This document shows positions 2,347 through 39,560 of a DNA stretch of 64,000 bases, one piece after another. A model generated the notes under the pieces. The model ran no database searches and was not told where the DNA came from. It worked only from the letters and a program-made list of their open reading frames with translations. Source of the stretch: Pseudomonas shahriarae (GTDB lineage: Bacteria; Pseudomonadota; Gammaproteobacteria; Pseudomonadales; Pseudomonadaceae). The stretch spans positions 1,922,001 to 1,986,000 of the forward strand of contig NZ_CP077085.1 in the NCBI RefSeq assembly GCF_014268455.2. Direction: 5' to 3'. Both the position numbers and the translations under genes were made by a program. Position 1 is the stretch's first letter. The number at the start of each line of letters is the position of its first letter.

Positions 2347-3543
2347 TCAGGCTCTTACGGTCGACGCGCCCCTGGACACACTCAAGAAGCGCAGCAAGGC
2401 CACCAACGGGAACGCGCTACCCACCAGGATCACCCCAAGCCAGCCGCCGTGTTCATACACACTGCTGGCAATCGCCGAGCCAAAGGCGCCACCGATGAAG
2501 ATGCTGGTCATGTACAGCGCGTTCAAGCGGCTGCGGCTGTGGGCGTCGAGGGCATAGATGGTGCGCTGGCCGAGGACCATATTCATCTGCACGCAGAAGT
2601 CCAGGACCACGCCCGTGACCATCAAGCCGATGACGCTGTAGGCCGGATGTACCAGCGCCGGTAGAAAACTCAGGGCCGCCAGCAACATGGCCAGCAACGA
2701 AGCACGGTGGGTGTGGCCGGCGTCCGCCAGGCGCCCACTGATCGGTGCTGCGATGGCGCCGAGGGCACCGACCAGGGCAAACAGGGCGATCTGGCTCTGG
2801 CTCAAGCCGTGGTTGCGTGAGAGTTCCAGGGGCACGGCGGTCCAGAACAGGCTGAAGGCAGCGAACAGGCAACCCTGGTAGAACGCCCGTTGGCGCAGCA
2901 ACGGTTGCTCGCGCAGCAGAGTGGCCAACGAGCGCAACAACTGGCCATAGCTGGCGCTGTGGTCCGGCTGGCGTTTGGGCACGGTCAACAACAGCACCAC
3001 GCTGATAATGGCCATCATTGCGGCTGCGGCCATGAACATCGCCCGCCAGCCGAAGTGGTCCGCCACCAGGCTGGACACCGGCCGTGCCAGCAGGATGCCC
3101 AGCAACAGGCCACCCATGATGCTGCCCACCACCCGGCCACGGGACTCGGCAGGTGCCAAGTGCGCGGCCAGGGGAATCAGGATCTGCACTGATACCGAGC
3201 TGAAGCCAATCAGCAACGACACCAACAGGAACAGGTTCGGCTCTTTGGTAAAGGCCGCACCCAACAGGCTGGCGATGGCGACCACGGTGGTGATGATCAT
3301 CAGCCGACGGTTTTCCAGCAGGTCGCCCAACGGCACCAGAAAGAACAGGCCCAGGGCATAACCAATCTGGGTCAGGGACACGATCAGGCTGGCCATGGCG
3401 GGTGTCAGGCCGATGTCCGGGGCAATCAACTCAATGATCGGTTGTGCGTAGTAGATGTTGGCGACGATGGCGCCGCAGCAGAACGCAAACAGCAGCACCA
3501 TGCCACGGGTCATGGTGGCGGTCGCGGGTGAGGTAGCGGTCAT
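2347..3543 (-). CDS. Major facilitator superfamily transporter (drug/metabolite exporter type)
   Basis: A 398-residue inner-membrane protein with about 12 hydrophobic segments in two six-helix halves, typical MFS size. A conserved-looking loop after helix 2 (PLGDLLENRRLM) corresponds to MFS motif A (GxLaDrxGrr-like), and NIYYAQPIIELIAPDIG is typical of the YnfM/arabinose-efflux-like subgroup. Substrate cannot be told from sequence. It is transcribed alone, converging on the metalloprotease. ATG 3543 is used; a second Met at residue 12 immediately precedes the first membrane helix and could be the true start. Confidence 0.85.
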   Translation of the reverse strand: MTATSPATATMTRGMVLLFAFCCGAIVANIYYAQPIIELIAPDIGLTPAMASLIVSLTQIGYALGLFFLVPLGDLLENRRLMIITTVVAIASLLGAAFTKEPNLFLLVSLLIGFSSVSVQILIPLAAHLAPAESRGRVVGSIMGGLLLGILLARPVSSLVADHFGWRAMFMAAAAMMAIISVVLLLTVPKRQPDHSASYGQLLRSLATLLREQPLLRQRAFYQGCLFAAFSLFWTAVPLELSRNHGLSQSQIALFALVGALGAIAAPISGRLADAGHTHRASLLAMLLAALSFLPALVHPAYSVIGLMVTGVVLDFCVQMNMVLGQRTIYALDAHSRSRLNALYMTSIFIGGAFGSAIASSVYEHGGWLGVILVGSAFPLVALLRFLSVSRGASTVRA

Positions 3544-13764: not shown

Positions 13765-13835
13765 TCATCGCGAGCAAGCCCGCGTTTTGACCTGTGAACA
13801 CGGTCAAAATGTGGGAGCGGGCTTGCTCGCGATAG
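13765..13835. repeat. REP pair downstream of the RAYT gene
   Basis: TCGCGAGCAAGCCCGC and its inverse GCGGGCTTGCTCGCGA flank a 30-base spacer, lying just past the RAYT stop codon. Confidence 0.88.
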
Positions 13836-13854
13836 GGGCGACTCGGTCTTAAAC

Positions 13855-14313
13855 CTAAACCCAAATTGCATCCCACAACGGATAGTCGCCAATCCTCTCC
13901 ACCAATCCCGCCCTCAATGGGTTGGCCACCACATACCTAGCCATCTTCACCAGATCATCCTCCTTGCGCAGCGCGCGATCATGAAAACTGGTTTGCCAAA
14001 GCCTTCCCTTGCGGCCAGTGGCACCATTGACTGAACGGGTGCTTTTGGATTTTACCTGGCACATCAAGTCCCCCAGGGAGCCCTTTTGCAGGTCGATCAG
14101 CCAGTGAAAGTGGTCGGGCATCACCACCCAGGCCAGAGAGTTCGCCAGCCCTTGATAGTGGGCAAGCCTGAACTGCCAGACCACCAGGCGGCCCAGGTGG
14201 AAATCGCTGAAGATCGGCACGCGCTCGTGGGTGTTGGTGGTGATTAGGTAGATGCGGTTGGTTTCGCTGAACCGGCCAATGCGTAGGCGGTGTGAGGTGG
14301 CTCGATCAGGCAT
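13855..14313 (-). CDS. rayT: REP-associated tyrosine transposase (RAYT)
   Basis: A 152-residue Y1/HUH-type transposase (transposase_17, TnpA_REP). The metal-binding HUH motif is in VVMPDHFHWLIDL, and the likely nucleophile tyrosine is in KMARYVVANPLRAGLVERI. These enzymes cleave and mobilise REP single strands. Cognate REPs lie on both sides (13765-13835 and 14409-14436), the usual arrangement. The frame is intact, so it may be active. Such genes are usually single-copy and treated as domesticated. Confidence 0.92.
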   Translation of the reverse strand: MPDRATSHRLRIGRFSETNRIYLITTNTHERVPIFSDFHLGRLVVWQFRLAHYQGLANSLAWVVMPDHFHWLIDLQKGSLGDLMCQVKSKSTRSVNGATGRKGRLWQTSFHDRALRKEDDLVKMARYVVANPLRAGLVERIGDYPLWDAIWV

Positions 14314-14408
14314 TCCGTTGCCTCTCTTCAGATGGGGTCTTGAGAGGCTAGATCGAGGAGTTTGAGGCTGATGGGCAGGCTTTTGGCAGGATGTGTCTGG
14401 GAGGGCAC

Positions 14409-14436
14409 TTTCGCGAGCAAGCCCGCTCCCACATGG
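14409..14436. repeat. Single REP upstream of the RAYT gene
   Basis: TTTCGCGAGCAAGCCCGCTC matches the REP on the other side of the transposase, giving REP-RAYT-REP order. Confidence 0.85.
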
Positions 14437-14499
14437 GATCTTCGTTGTTCATACATTTTGTGTCTGGCACAGTTCTAATCTTGGCCACACCACGGTCCC

Positions 14500-21075: not shown

Positions 21076-22333
21076 TGTACGGACCGGACACATGGTTGAC
21101 GGGTGTGCGGGGACATGGTGGACACTTTTGGCGAGCCAACTTCGCCGGAAAGCCATCATGCCCTGGGACACGAGAGATACCATGAGCCTGAAAGAAGAGT
21201 TCATTGCCTTAGCACGGCAACCCGGCAGCAATAAACGAGAGCTGTGTCGACGGTTCGGCATCAGTCCGCAAACGGCCTATAAGTGGTTGAAACGCTATGA
21301 AATGCAGGGGCAGTCTGGACTGCAAGAGAAGTCCCGAAAACCTGCGACTAGCCCAAAGCTAACCGCGCCAGCTCTGGAAGCGGAAGTCATAGCGCTTAGG
21401 CGAGCACATCCCGCTTGGGGCGGACGTACAATCAGCAGCCTTTTGAAAAAGCAGATTGCTCCTAGCACTGTCACCAATGTTCTGCACCGATGCGGGCTGA
21501 TTCAGCCTGTTCAGAAGGAACAAGAAGCAAAGCTGAGATTTGAACACGATGCACCTAACGATCTTTGGCAGATGGATTTCAAAGGGCACTTCCCGACGCA
21601 AGAAGGCCGATGCCATCCGCTGACGTTGCTGGACGATCACTCACGATTCAATTTGGCGATTCAAGCTTGTGATAACGAGCGTGGAATCACAGTGAAGGAA
21701 AAGATGATCGAGGTATTCCAGCGCTTTGGTTTACCGGCTCGCATCAACGTTGACAATGGGCCGCCATGGGGCTCGCCACGCAACCCTGGGGAAATCACAG
21801 AATTAAGTATCTGGTTGATTCGCTTGGGGATCAGGATCAGCTTCAGTCGTCCTTATCACCCTCAAACCAATGGAAAGATTGAGCGCTTCCATCGTTCACT
21901 CAAAGCCGAGGTGCTTGATGGGCGTCAATTCTCCACGATCAAGGATGCTCAAACAGCGTTTGATCAATGGCGTGAGGTCTATAACTTAAAACGCCCTCAC
22001 CAAGCACTGGACTACAAGGTGCCTATGGACCGGTATCGAGCAAGCCCCTGGGCTTATCCGCAGCAGCTATCGGAGTTTGAATATGGGCCGGATGATGTGC
22101 TGGCCAAGGTTTATCACAGCCGATTTCGCTTTCAGAAACGTTACTTCAGCATTGCCAAGGGGCTGGTTGGGCAGCACATCGCAGTTCGGCCTAACCCTGA
22201 AAGTGACGGGCTCTTTGACGTCTACTTCTGCCACCATTTCCTACGAACGATCGACGTGAGCAAACCGGACTATGGTTCATAATGTGTCAACTATGTCCCC
22301 GCACATGTGTCCACTATGTGTCCGGTCCGTACA
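21076..22333 (+). mobile_element. IS481-family insertion sequence, 1258 bp, apparently complete
   Basis: The ends are TGTACGGACCGGACACAT and its complement, with further matches (GTGCGGGGACAT) inside. The 8-bp target duplication GAAGAGCG flanks it (21068-21075 and 22334-22341). It entered the left arm of the palindromic element 16 bp from the IS3-family copy, with the IS3 right target duplication between them. Confidence 0.93.
21158..22282 (+). CDS. IS481-family transposase
   Basis: A 374-residue transposase starting MPWDTRDTMSLKEEF, with helix-turn-helix NKRELCRRFGISPQTAYKWL and an rve integrase core. Likely DDE residues lie in WQMDFKGHF, RINVDNGPPWG and NGKIERFHRSLKAEVL. The C-terminal region continues to FLRTIDVSKPDYGS. 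I chose ATG 21158; MSLKEEF at 21182 is an alternative. The frame is intact from end to end. Confidence 0.93.
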   Translation: MPWDTRDTMSLKEEFIALARQPGSNKRELCRRFGISPQTAYKWLKRYEMQGQSGLQEKSRKPATSPKLTAPALEAEVIALRRAHPAWGGRTISSLLKKQIAPSTVTNVLHRCGLIQPVQKEQEAKLRFEHDAPNDLWQMDFKGHFPTQEGRCHPLTLLDDHSRFNLAIQACDNERGITVKEKMIEVFQRFGLPARINVDNGPPWGSPRNPGEITELSIWLIRLGIRISFSRPYHPQTNGKIERFHRSLKAEVLDGRQFSTIKDAQTAFDQWREVYNLKRPHQALDYKVPMDRYRASPWAYPQQLSEFEYGPDDVLAKVYHSRFRFQKRYFSIAKGLVGQHIAVRPNPESDGLFDVYFCHHFLRTIDVSKPDYGS

Positions 22334-22400
22334 GAAGAGCGCGAAAGTAACCAAAGCGCTTTTGCCCCACCACTCGGCACCTCGCCTAGGCTCGGTGTGC

Positions 22401-22509
22401 CCGTCATCCGACATTGATTTTGGGGGCCGCCGCGATGGGCCATCCATGGCCCAGCGCGGCTAACCCGGCGTCCTGCCGGGTTACCCCCCAAATCAATATC
22501 GGATGACGG
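22401..22509. repeat. Cloverleaf-like fold in the left arm of the palindromic element
   Basis: CCGTCATCCGA pairs with TCGGATGACGG and ATTGATTT with AAATCAAT, closing two inner hairpins: GGGCCAT-CC-ATGGCCC and AACCCGGC-GTCCT-GCCGGGTT. The right-arm counterpart keeps the pairing with different bases. Confidence 0.75.
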
Positions 22510-22804
22510 CCAGCGTGGTTTAACGGGGCGCCTCAGATCAAAAGCAAAGCGAGGCGGCCTGACAGCCGACCTGATCGTCGAAGCGTGCGCGGACTCCTGT
22601 GGGAGCTGGCTTGTCGGATCGCCGCATCGCTGCGATGGCGCCGGCACTGCTAGCCTTTATGTTGTCTGACACACCGCTATCGCAGCCTCGCAGGGCGAGA
22701 CAGCTCCCACAGGGGAATGCAGCTTCGCGCTCTGGCATTGCTGTTGCTCTGCTTTTGATCTGGCTTTTGATCTTGATCTTAGGCGCCCCGTTAAACCACG
22801 ATGG

Positions 22805-22914
22805 CCGCAGGCAGGTATTGCGCAGTGGGCACCCCGGCATGGATGCCGGGGTAGCCGCGACACGGCCATGGATGGCCGATCGCGGCGGGCCCACGGAGCA
22901 ATGCCTGACTGCGG
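22805..22914. repeat. Cloverleaf-like fold in the right arm of the palindromic element
   Basis: Outer stem CCGCAGGCAGGTATTG with CAATGCCTGACTGCGG (4 mismatches over 26 paired positions when extended), enclosing ACCCCGGCAT-GG-ATGCCGGGGT and GCCGCG...CGGCCAT-GG-ATGGCCG...CGCGGC. It is an inverted, diverged copy of the left fold. Confidence 0.75.
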
Positions 22915-23085
22915 GCATGCCGAGCCTAGGCGAGGCACCGAGTGGTGGGGCAAGAGCGTTTTGCTTACTTTGGCGCTTCTCCAAAGTGAGCCGCCGTCAG
23001 GGCGGAACCCTAAGTGGCCGTGACCGCAGCAACGGATATGTACACAAACCCAATAAGCTAAAGAGTTGTGTAGATACCTATGCTC

Positions 23086-23150
23086 ATCGCAGGCAAACCC
23101 GCTCCCACATTTGAATGTATTCACAGATCAAAATGTGGGAGCGGTGCGAT
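23086..23150. repeat. REP pair next to the right end of the palindromic element
   Basis: ATCGCAGGCAAACCCGCTCCCACAT-type REP and an inverse GTGGGAGCGG copy. The palindromic element seems to have inserted into this REP, since AATCGC also precedes its left end. Confidence 0.75.
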
Positions 23151-23157
23151 AGCGATC

Positions 23158-24711
23158 TTATGGATTGCGCACCCGCAGGCAACGCCACAAGGCTGCAACC
23201 ATCAACACGCTGACCAGCGCCCAACCCAGGGCCTGCTGGTTCATCAAGCCTTCGCGGTACAGCTGCGGTGCAATGCCGGCGCCGATGATGAAGGTCAGCA
23301 GGGCTATTTCCCGGCGTGGCCCCCTGACCGGGCGCAGCAGGTAGACCAGCGCCGGCAGCAGCAGGGCGGCAGTGGGGAAGCTGCGGTAGCGTGGGTCGAA
23401 CACCAGTGCCAGCATCATTACCGTCGTGGCGAACCCTGCGAATGCAATCAACCAGCCAGCGCGCTGCTCCAGCCAGGCGTAGGCCCGTGCGCGCCAACCC
23501 TGGCGAGCGCTCAAGGCCAGGGCCCCATGGGCCAGCACCAACAGGTTCAGGGCCAGCAACAGCCCAGCCCAGATCCATTCATCAGTGAAGCGCGCGGTCA
23601 CTCGGGTCAGTTCGGCCCAACTGCCAATCGAGCCCGCCGCCACCGCGCCCAGCAACGGCAGCAACAACGCGGCGCGGGTACTGCGCACACGCCCGCCGAG
23701 CACCAGGGTGCCCAATAGGATCAGCCCGCCAACGCCCAGCCACAGCGGCCAGTACGGCACATTGGTGACCGGGCCGGCCAGGATGCCCTTGTCCTGGCGT
23801 TCGGCATCAAACAGCCCCCAGTAACCGCCGACCGCCCCTTCGCTGGCGCGTTTCCACGGCTGGTCAAAGGCTTCGATCAGGTTGTAATGCCAGCCATTGG
23901 CTTCGGCCATGGCGACAAAACCGCGAATGAACTTGGCTTCGTTGACCCGGCTCGGCACTGCGGTTTCCCGCTGGCGGCCTTCGCTGGGCCAGCCGGTTTC
24001 GCCAATCATCACGTCCTTGGGGGCGAAGCGGTTGCCGAAGGTCTGGCGAATATCGCCGACATGGCGCAGGGCCTGGTCGATCCCCGCCGGGTCATCTTCC
24101 CAATACGGCAACAAGTGAATGGTCAGGAAATCCACCGCCGGGGCAATTTCCGGGTGTTGCAGCCAGAACTCCCAGACATCGGCATAGGTGACCGGCTGCT
24201 GGATCTGGCTTTTGACCTTTTCGATCAGCTTCACCAACTGCGTGGCGGTGATTTCCTTGCGCAACAGGGCTTCGTTGCCGACGATCACCGACGTGACCAC
24301 GTCAGGGTTGGCGTTGGCCGAGGCGATCAGCAGGTCGACCTCCTTGGCGTTGTCCATCGGGTTGCTGTTGATCCAGGCACCGATCATCAACTTCAGGCCG
24401 TGTTTGCGCGCCAGGTCCGGCAGGGCTTCGAGGCCGGTCATGGAGTAGGTGCGGATGCACTCAAAGCGCGTGGCCAGCAATGCCAGGTCGGCGTCCATGC
24501 GCTCGGGGCGCAGTTTGAACGGCTGGTCGAACGGTGACTGGTCCTTGTCGAAGGGCGTGTAGGACGCGCATTGCAACTTGTGGCTGGCGCTGGCGACGTC
24601 CGGCAGCACTAGTGGCTGGCCGAGGCCATACCAGTAGCCGCCCAGCGCGAACAGGCCGAGCAGCAAGGCAAATACATAAGGCATGAAGGGGAAGCGGGCA
24701 GTCGCGGTCAT
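23158..24711 (-). CDS. Membrane-anchored glycoside hydrolase family 17 protein (beta-glucan synthesis/remodelling type)
   Basis: A 517-residue protein with an N-terminal membrane segment (PYVFALLLGLFALGGYWYG), a GH17 catalytic domain at about 40-320 and seven or eight membrane helices after it. The likely acid/base glutamate is in VIVGNEALLR and the nucleophile in DVMIGETGWPSEGRQRE. Pseudomonas homologues are often labelled beta-(1,6)-glucan synthase, which fits a transglycosidase role better than free hydrolysis. ATG 24711 directly precedes the membrane helix; codons further upstream run through unlikely sequence. Confidence 0.85.
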   Translation of the reverse strand: MTATARFPFMPYVFALLLGLFALGGYWYGLGQPLVLPDVASASHKLQCASYTPFDKDQSPFDQPFKLRPERMDADLALLATRFECIRTYSMTGLEALPDLARKHGLKLMIGAWINSNPMDNAKEVDLLIASANANPDVVTSVIVGNEALLRKEITATQLVKLIEKVKSQIQQPVTYADVWEFWLQHPEIAPAVDFLTIHLLPYWEDDPAGIDQALRHVGDIRQTFGNRFAPKDVMIGETGWPSEGRQRETAVPSRVNEAKFIRGFVAMAEANGWHYNLIEAFDQPWKRASEGAVGGYWGLFDAERQDKGILAGPVTNVPYWPLWLGVGGLILLGTLVLGGRVRSTRAALLLPLLGAVAAGSIGSWAELTRVTARFTDEWIWAGLLLALNLLVLAHGALALSARQGWRARAYAWLEQRAGWLIAFAGFATTVMMLALVFDPRYRSFPTAALLLPALVYLLRPVRGPRREIALLTFIIGAGIAPQLYREGLMNQQALGWALVSVLMVAALWRCLRVRNP

Positions 24712-33499: not shown

Positions 33500-33534
33500 C
33501 TACGGCGCAGGCTTCAACCGGCGCCGTAGTTTTA
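33500..33534 (+). terminator. Intercistronic terminator-like hairpin between sdhB and sucA
   Basis: CTACGGCGC, a 12-base loop, GCGCCGTAG and then TTTTAA. The short U-tract suggests partial termination between the sdh and suc segments. Confidence 0.7.
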
Positions 33535-33720
33535 ACTTGAGCAGCGACTTACAAAGCCGCGGCTCTTATTTTGAAGAAATGAGACAAGCAGGGGCATTCG
33601 GGTTGGTACCCGAACTATCAGCGTGATCCTAAGTGGCTTGTTTTGGTCGCTGCACTTGGCCTTTTGCAAGCAAACTCGGTGTTTTCGCCGGTGGTGTCCC
33701 CAAATCGAGGGTGACCAAGC

Positions 33721-39358: not shown

Positions 39359-39560
39359 GCGAGATAATAAGAAACCACGGCGGTTGCCCGTCGTGAGCCT
39401 TGCGCGCAAGACTCACCGCGGAATATCCGCTGGACGCAGTCTTGCGCAGCTTTGCCGGCCTTAGGGCGGTGGAGCTGGGCAAGCAGCAGTCACAGGTGGC
39501 GCGGCACTCATAATGAGCGCAGCGCCGAATGCGCAGTACCTAACGAAGACGGTAAAAAGC

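Follow-up and report, generated by a model that had tools for sequence, protein, structure and literature searches.

At positions 22401–22914 of the window (the whole 64,000-nt stretch of Pseudomonas shahriarae contig NZ_CP077085.1 that was analyzed, positions 1,922,001–1,986,000 of the forward strand), a palindromic element carries two folded arms whose stems differ in sequence and still pair. This raises the question of whether structure is selected here and, if so, whether it acts as DNA or as RNA. A sequence-only reading of the locus had proposed selection on a DNA cruciform or an RNA, serving as the substrate of a transposase acting in trans, as a structured RNA or as a binding platform.

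Arms and layout of the element

Each arm was described as an outer stem enclosing two hairpins (22401–22509 and 22805–22914), and folding on either strand agrees. Folded alone, the arms reached −79.5 to −86.3 kcal/mol with z scores of −8.15 to −10.92, and 0/200 shuffles were as good as the real arm in each of the four folds. The stem base changes quoted between the arms are correct as read. Two points required adjustment: the supposedly cloverleaf-like fold does have a stem with two hairpins, but the arm is Y-shaped and not a full cloverleaf; and the folds form on the strand described, where the loops read ATCCAT, but the selected strand is its complement. On the selected strand, both loops of arm 2 (+ strand) read ATGGAT, and those of arm 1 (− strand) read ATGGAT and AGGAC.

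A cmscan search against Rfam identified both arms as TwoAYGGAY (RF01731), with scores of 59.6 and 52.8 bits against a gathering score of 43 bits. The arms share with this family the closing stem and two GGA hairpins; arm 2 has both terminal AYGGAY loops, and arm 1 has one plus the shorter AGGAC. Unlike the family as described, they form the 5′ part of a longer RNA, occur in many copies as outward inverted pairs and may have AGGAX as one loop. The features of the arms and of the element around them are as follows.

22334–22400, − strand: 3′ part of the arm 1 RNA, from comparison with other copies
22386–22522, − strand: arm 1, TwoAYGGAY domain with closing stem and two hairpins (RF01731, 59.6 bits; fold)
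22442–22447 and 22470–22474, − strand: arm 1 loops ATGGAT and AGGAC, respectively
22596–22715, no strand assigned: REPIN-like stretch at the element center (inverted repeat I5; TGTGGGAGCTGGCTTG and its inverse)
22802–22914, + strand: arm 2, TwoAYGGAY domain (RF01731, 52.8 bits; fold; family covariation)
22827–22892, + strand: Rfam core match of arm 2, with ATGGAT loops at 22839–22844 and 22868–22873
23040–23117, + strand: the element's outer end (...GTGTAGATACCTATG) and, after it, a REP sequence (alignment of 18 copies; REP scans)

The arms are part of an inverted repeat that is not perfect (82% over 114 nt and 73% over 94 nt), within an element of approximately 640 bp or more, which has REP sequences in its center and at many of its ends. 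The whole element is two structured RNAs of ~250–270 nt set back to back, with their 5′ ends inward and reading outwards. In two sister copies (L036 and L040), the central REPIN-like stretch is only part of one REP. Of the features of a MITE, inverted ends were seen in the alignment of 18 copies; neither a clean target-site duplication nor a matching transposase was shown. With a stricter REP pattern, a REP core lay within 90 nt of 17/47 recognizable outer ends, and a REP or half-REP of 32/47, compared with 44/2040 and 316/2040 random control windows, respectively, which include coding DNA; an earlier, laxer pattern gave 24/47 ends versus 188/1020 control windows. The window also holds a RAYT-type gene (Y1_Tnp match at 13930–14136, − strand), flanked on both sides by GTGGGAGCGGGCTTGC-class REPs (13813–14440), the same class as those of the element.

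An insertion sequence at 21092–22333, encoding a 396-amino-acid protein that matches the integrase-core and IS481 leucine-zipper families, interrupts the HP4 hairpin of arm 1. The cut lies near 22333, and this copy lacks the remainder of HP4 together with HP5 and the tail. In another copy (130912; L005, around position 3379), the tip of HP4 is occupied by an insertion sequence that shares its terminal letters with this one; both junctions are visible, and the HP4 hairpin may be a favored target of the insertion sequence.

Covariation and the strand under constraint

Because two copies cannot by themselves show covariation, the test used 39 divergent arms, mostly under about 93% alike. In this sample, 96.5% of cells were paired, 18/32 pairs had changed on both sides, and 162 cells were changed on both sides, compared with a shuffled mean of 43.3 (0/500 shuffles as high) and 7–18 in slid controls. 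None of the 39-arm covariation measures was matched by any of the 500 shuffles or by any slid control, and RNAalifold returned the same structure from the arm alignment. By approximate Fitch event counts, 156 distinct arms placed on a tree (the arms of L062, L071, L072, L194 and L198 omitted) showed 72 double changes that replaced one Watson-Crick pair with a different one, and 95 copies of the larger RNA showed 197, against 1, 5, 1 and 16 in slid controls. Alignment of the copies with a test for covariation had been suggested as a check on the sequence-only reading; the covariation found in the 39 arms, the 156 arms and the 95 extended copies is far above the shuffled and slid controls, and its claim of selection on structure is borne out in Pseudomonas. 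The stems covary strongly across the genus, and selection for structure is strongly supported. Conservation may partly reflect recent copying, since copies multiply within genomes.

Since every G·U pair on one strand reads as an A·C mismatch on its complement, the ratio of the two reveals which strand is in use. On the GGA strand of the 156 arms, single changes from Watson-Crick pairs led to G·U in 44 cases and to A·C in 7; for the larger RNA, the same counts were 48 and 6 (p = 1.6e-9), and G·U:A·C in slid controls was 46:47, 51:48, 34:32 and 13:36. A structure predicted from the GGA strand could itself favor G·U pairs; therefore, the structure was predicted again from the complementary strand. 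There, 59/63 helix pairs recurred with a G·U:A·C ratio of 43:6, and all 78 complementary-strand-predicted pairs, unreliable ones included, gave 92 G·U and 23 A·C. The outward (GGA) strand was also more stable than its complement in 57/58 left arms, 55/58 right arms and both arms of 54/58 inverted pairs, an energy comparison that is also influenced by loops and composition. It is well supported that the constraint acts on the outward GGA strand as RNA.

The larger RNA and its GGA loops

By eye, the outer (3′) flank of the arms is more conserved than the inner (5′) flank. TwoAYGGAY makes up the 5′ part of a longer RNA in which three further hairpins covary. Extended copies (235) were reduced to 201 by excluding odd subfamilies and requiring GGATA near the 3′ end, and then thinned to 95 for alignment; conservation of the 3′ GGATA cannot be judged in the 95-copy alignment, where it was a selection criterion. 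The counts of double Watson-Crick changes below are from the tree of these 95 copies.

22785–22951, + strand: P0, a possible long-range helix of the arm 2 RNA (single-sequence fold and 95-sequence consensus)
22785–22789 with 22947–22951, + strand: P0 pairs GCCCC/GGGGC
22796–22799 with 22942–22945, + strand: P0 pairs CCAC/GTGG
22918–22937, + strand: HP3 of the arm 2 RNA, 33 double changes
22964–22990, + strand: HP4 of the arm 2 RNA, 41 double changes
22991–23005, + strand: HP5 of the arm 2 RNA, 44 double changes
23032–23036, + strand: ACGGA in the 3′ tail, the third ANGGA motif, from motif recurrence among copies

P0 is nearly invariant in Pseudomonas, with one double change on the same tree, and in the predicted fold it could close a domain running from TwoAYGGAY to HP3. 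A further 3′ hairpin predicted by RNAalifold, HP6, was poorly kept and was dropped before the event counts, from which pairs 47–159, 83–88, 111–116 and 181–188 were also excluded. An ANGGA motif (N being C, T or A) followed HP5 within 60 nt in 205/235 copies, which are not independent and include many close kin; of the remainder, 19 lacked the HP5 motif as written and 11 lacked ANGGA. When compared with other Rfam families at E values up to 5, the downstream hairpins produced no match near a family's own gathering score.

Conservation of the loops was assessed with a profile in which the loops were masked, searched through the gathered loci to avoid circularity. After removal of hits with incomplete coverage or a score under 38, 248/280 were kept, and 62 distinct arms were independent of the loop-dependent search; three had no two-hairpin fold, leaving 59. 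GGA was present in 59/59 first loops and 58/59 second loops (117/118), in a sample that retains a kinship bias because the profile seeds were GGA-bearing arms. The base preceding GGA was free, being T, A, G, C or missing (AGGAC). The exceptions to GGA were one GAA among the 118 loops and L070, which reads AGA in A1. In one further arm (L194:4599–4724), the part of the first hairpin with the GGA loop is tandemly repeated, adding an extra GGA.

The high-affinity site of RsmE, determined by NMR, is an ANGGAX hexaloop set directly on a stem, and binding is reported to be weaker when N is missing (PMC4005645). Both loop forms, ANGGAX and AGGAX, occur in the element family, and an invariant GGA with a variable preceding base is what the RsmE consensus would predict. 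In arm 2, the start-to-start distance between the GGA motifs of the two loops is 29 nt, a spacing that one dimer might bridge. Hairpin loops with A(N)GGA occur several times, as in Rsm/Csr sponge sRNAs, and RF01731 and RsmZ belong to the same Rfam clan, CL00106. The source genome has three CsrA-family genes and RsmZ. In the class sample, CsrA was present in 23/23 other genomes positive for TwoAYGGAY but also in 17/20 negative ones, so its presence does not discriminate. Rsm proteins are described as also binding, in vitro, single-stranded DNA probes with GGA loops (PMC9928087); therefore, Rsm binding alone would not prove a role as RNA.

TwoAYGGAY was listed by Weinberg et al. in 2010 as probably an RNA and not cis-regulatory, with gut, Gammaproteobacteria and Clostridiales given as its sources (PMC2864571); the listing gave no function. 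A 2014 paper proposed CsrA binding by TwoAYGGAY, presented there as unvalidated (PMC4333381), and the Rfam 15 paper mentions two added covarying pairs for the family (PMC11701678). Full-text literature searches turned up neither the twin arrangement nor the larger RNA in print. Judged by these searches, the test of the strand and the one with masked loops are new, and so are the hairpins downstream of TwoAYGGAY and the arrangement as outward twins across genera. Strand-specific covariation, the free base before GGA and the larger architecture link TwoAYGGAY to the RsmA/CsrA network in a testable way.

Distribution, setting and possible role

In the source genome, a single contig of 6.05 Mb, there are 54 RF01731 matches, which group into about 34 elements, some two-armed and some single. 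In the genus sample, where up to 21 candidates were scored in each genome, 63/119 genomes exceeded the RF01731 cut-off and 73/119 had a match at E 0.001; in the class sample, 24/369 genomes (22/272 genera) had a match at E 0.001 and 16/369 reached the cut-off. Carriers among the matches listed by a pattern scan included P. kilonensis (for instance DSM 13647), P. mandelii, P. brassicacearum, P. corrugata and P. viridiflava. Carriage on plasmids or phages was rejected because matches by blastn were nearly absent from both record sets (1/72,556 plasmid and 2/50,697 phage records), and the element is essentially chromosomal. The rare partial matches were in phages MT121968.1 (5261–5479) and MT835710.1 (26719–26781), records that may contain host DNA, and in plasmid NZ_CP015601.1 (58053–58485).

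Pseudomonas loci comprised 63 outward, 6 tandem, 3 inward and 66 solo arrangements, plus 40 at locus edges. The two hairpins recur with differing stems in other Gammaproteobacteria, where the larger RNA is partly seen: by eye, an AT-rich HP4-like hairpin lies downstream in 12/17 other-genus loci and is absent from L291, L292, L296, L297 and L302. The second loop was ACGAC and not GGA in 4/19 of the other-genus loci listed. In the distant relatives L286, L289–L291 and L306–L335, it is often ACGAC instead of AGGAC, and the first loop keeps ANGGA. For one distant genus, the hairpin in the place of HP4 was used as a search anchor, giving 36 matches in 3/5 genomes and 33 distinct upstream stretches. 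An upstream ANGGA hairpin loop was present in 29 of these and absent in 4; the next loop had GGA in 16/29 and lacked it in 13/29, which weakens the claim that both GGA sites are needed in every case. Pairs within 800 bp in this genus were outward in 13 cases and inward in 1 (by eye), and stretches beside the stems could pair like P0, with a different sequence in the same place, also by eye.

No called gene lay inside the element in any of the 33 copies with flanks (edge overlaps of up to 80 bp allowed; genes called by a codon-usage score of our own design). The neighboring genes were convergent in 16 copies, tandem in 14 and divergent in 3, compared with 13, 33 and 22, respectively, for the 68 remaining gaps of 60 bp or more at the same loci. 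At a single locus, a convergent gene pair has the element in this genome and a 20–223 bp spacer instead in eight relatives; by eye, six of these spacers contain a REP pair, one contains one REP and one has no REP.

In the likeliest explanation, to which we give about an even chance, the RNA of this REP-associated repeat binds an RsmA/RsmE (CsrA-family) dimer, either acting as a decoy or providing a landing site within the transcript that contains it. The 5′ domain would be a long stem with two hairpins presenting ANGGAX or AGGAX loops, the RsmE forms of high and lower affinity, and three more hairpins and a third ANGGA would come after it. No sigma-70-like promoter was found in 22280–23160, and a consensus scan of the same interval gave no intrinsic (Rho-independent) terminator. 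The upstream box of GacA has the pattern TGTAAG-N6-CTTACA; no such box was found near the element at up to three mismatches, and RsmZ of the same genome, the positive control, has one with a single mismatch. Because promoter, terminator and GacA box were not found, we assume that the RNA would be made by read-through from neighbors or from an unrecognized promoter. We infer from its loops that it could bind RsmA/RsmE and titrate them as a decoy, or recruit them to the host transcript. The element may also be mobile, its copies having plausibly spread along with REP/RAYT sequences. If the RNA is made, the 54 matches would represent about a hundred potential Rsm sites beyond the RsmX/Y/Z genes, a number that could vary as copies are gained or lost. 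A bolder form of the idea, and a doubtful one, is that TwoAYGGAY is a class-wide, dispersed family of twin-gene RNAs acting as a copy-number-dependent CsrA/RsmA sponge, a parasite-like repeat with its own regulator decoy; each new insertion would then shift the Gac/Rsm balance of the cell.

The sequence-only reading left DNA cruciform and RNA side by side, and the RNA half survives. A symmetric cruciform fails to explain a strand bias, as does a single DNA strand, which carries the two arms in opposite senses, and the strand-specific tolerance of G·U (48:6 and 43:6) and the more stable fold of the outward strand in both arms argue against either. Equal constraint on both strands, expected of a cruciform substrate, was not observed. 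A transposase substrate in trans fits badly with a constraint that is strand specific and outward in both arms, and the structured RNA and binding platform fit the evidence. The cruciform or transposase substrate was therefore rejected as the main reading. We consider it very unlikely that a cruciform or single-stranded DNA hairpin is recognized by a transposase such as RAYT, in spite of the near-palindrome with REP ends and the RAYT gene with same-class flanking REPs in the window; the compensated hairpins HP3–HP5 adjoining the arms also speak against it. A chance or relic origin, in which the folds are by-products of an old palindromic repeat, is barely credible: intergenic repeats are described as common in Pseudomonas (PMC2718517), but cross-species compensation is far above the shuffled and slid controls.

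The two other alternatives accept an RNA. Outward hairpins might protect, process or stop the transcripts of flanking, often convergent, genes, with GGA otherwise used or Rsm binding incidental. Very stable stems, the lack of genes inside and the excess of convergent neighbors over other gaps suit such a 3′-end element. We nevertheless hold it to be unlikely, since the interval lacks a terminator-like site, an incoming transcript from a neighbor would first read the nearer arm on the strand that is not under selection, and the retention of GGA next to a variable 5′ base would be unexplained; convergent sites may only mark places where insertion is harmless. The RNA might instead be part of an unrecognized mobile element, for example for its own dispersal as non-autonomous twin copies, with Rsm binding not its main role. 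The 54 matches in the source genome, the prevalence of outward pairs in Pseudomonas and in a distant genus, the REP-adjoining ends and the locus with spacers in eight relatives all lend this some weight. It is quite unlikely in our judgment, given that GGA loops fit a known host regulator and that no partner gene or clean target-site duplication was shown for the element, autonomous relatives not having been searched systematically.

Known systems resemble the element in part. RsmX, RsmY, RsmZ and the CsrB-type sponges have the A(N)GGAX hairpin loops; unlike them, the element has a long GC-rich closing stem and many dispersed copies, and a terminator and GacA box were not seen. REPINs with their RAYT genes share the REPs in the center and at many ends, but the element is several times larger and has conserved RNA hairpins in place of the simple REP doublet described for REPINs (PMC3116915). 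Ppu-1, described as a 617-bp structured intergenic repeat of P. putida with 39 members tabulated (PMC2267715), is similar in length, setting and structured nature by description only, and it may be the same element, which is a guess. Two other RNA families occur in the window, sucA-II (33500–33717) and sucC (39489–39559), both known cis-regulatory families.
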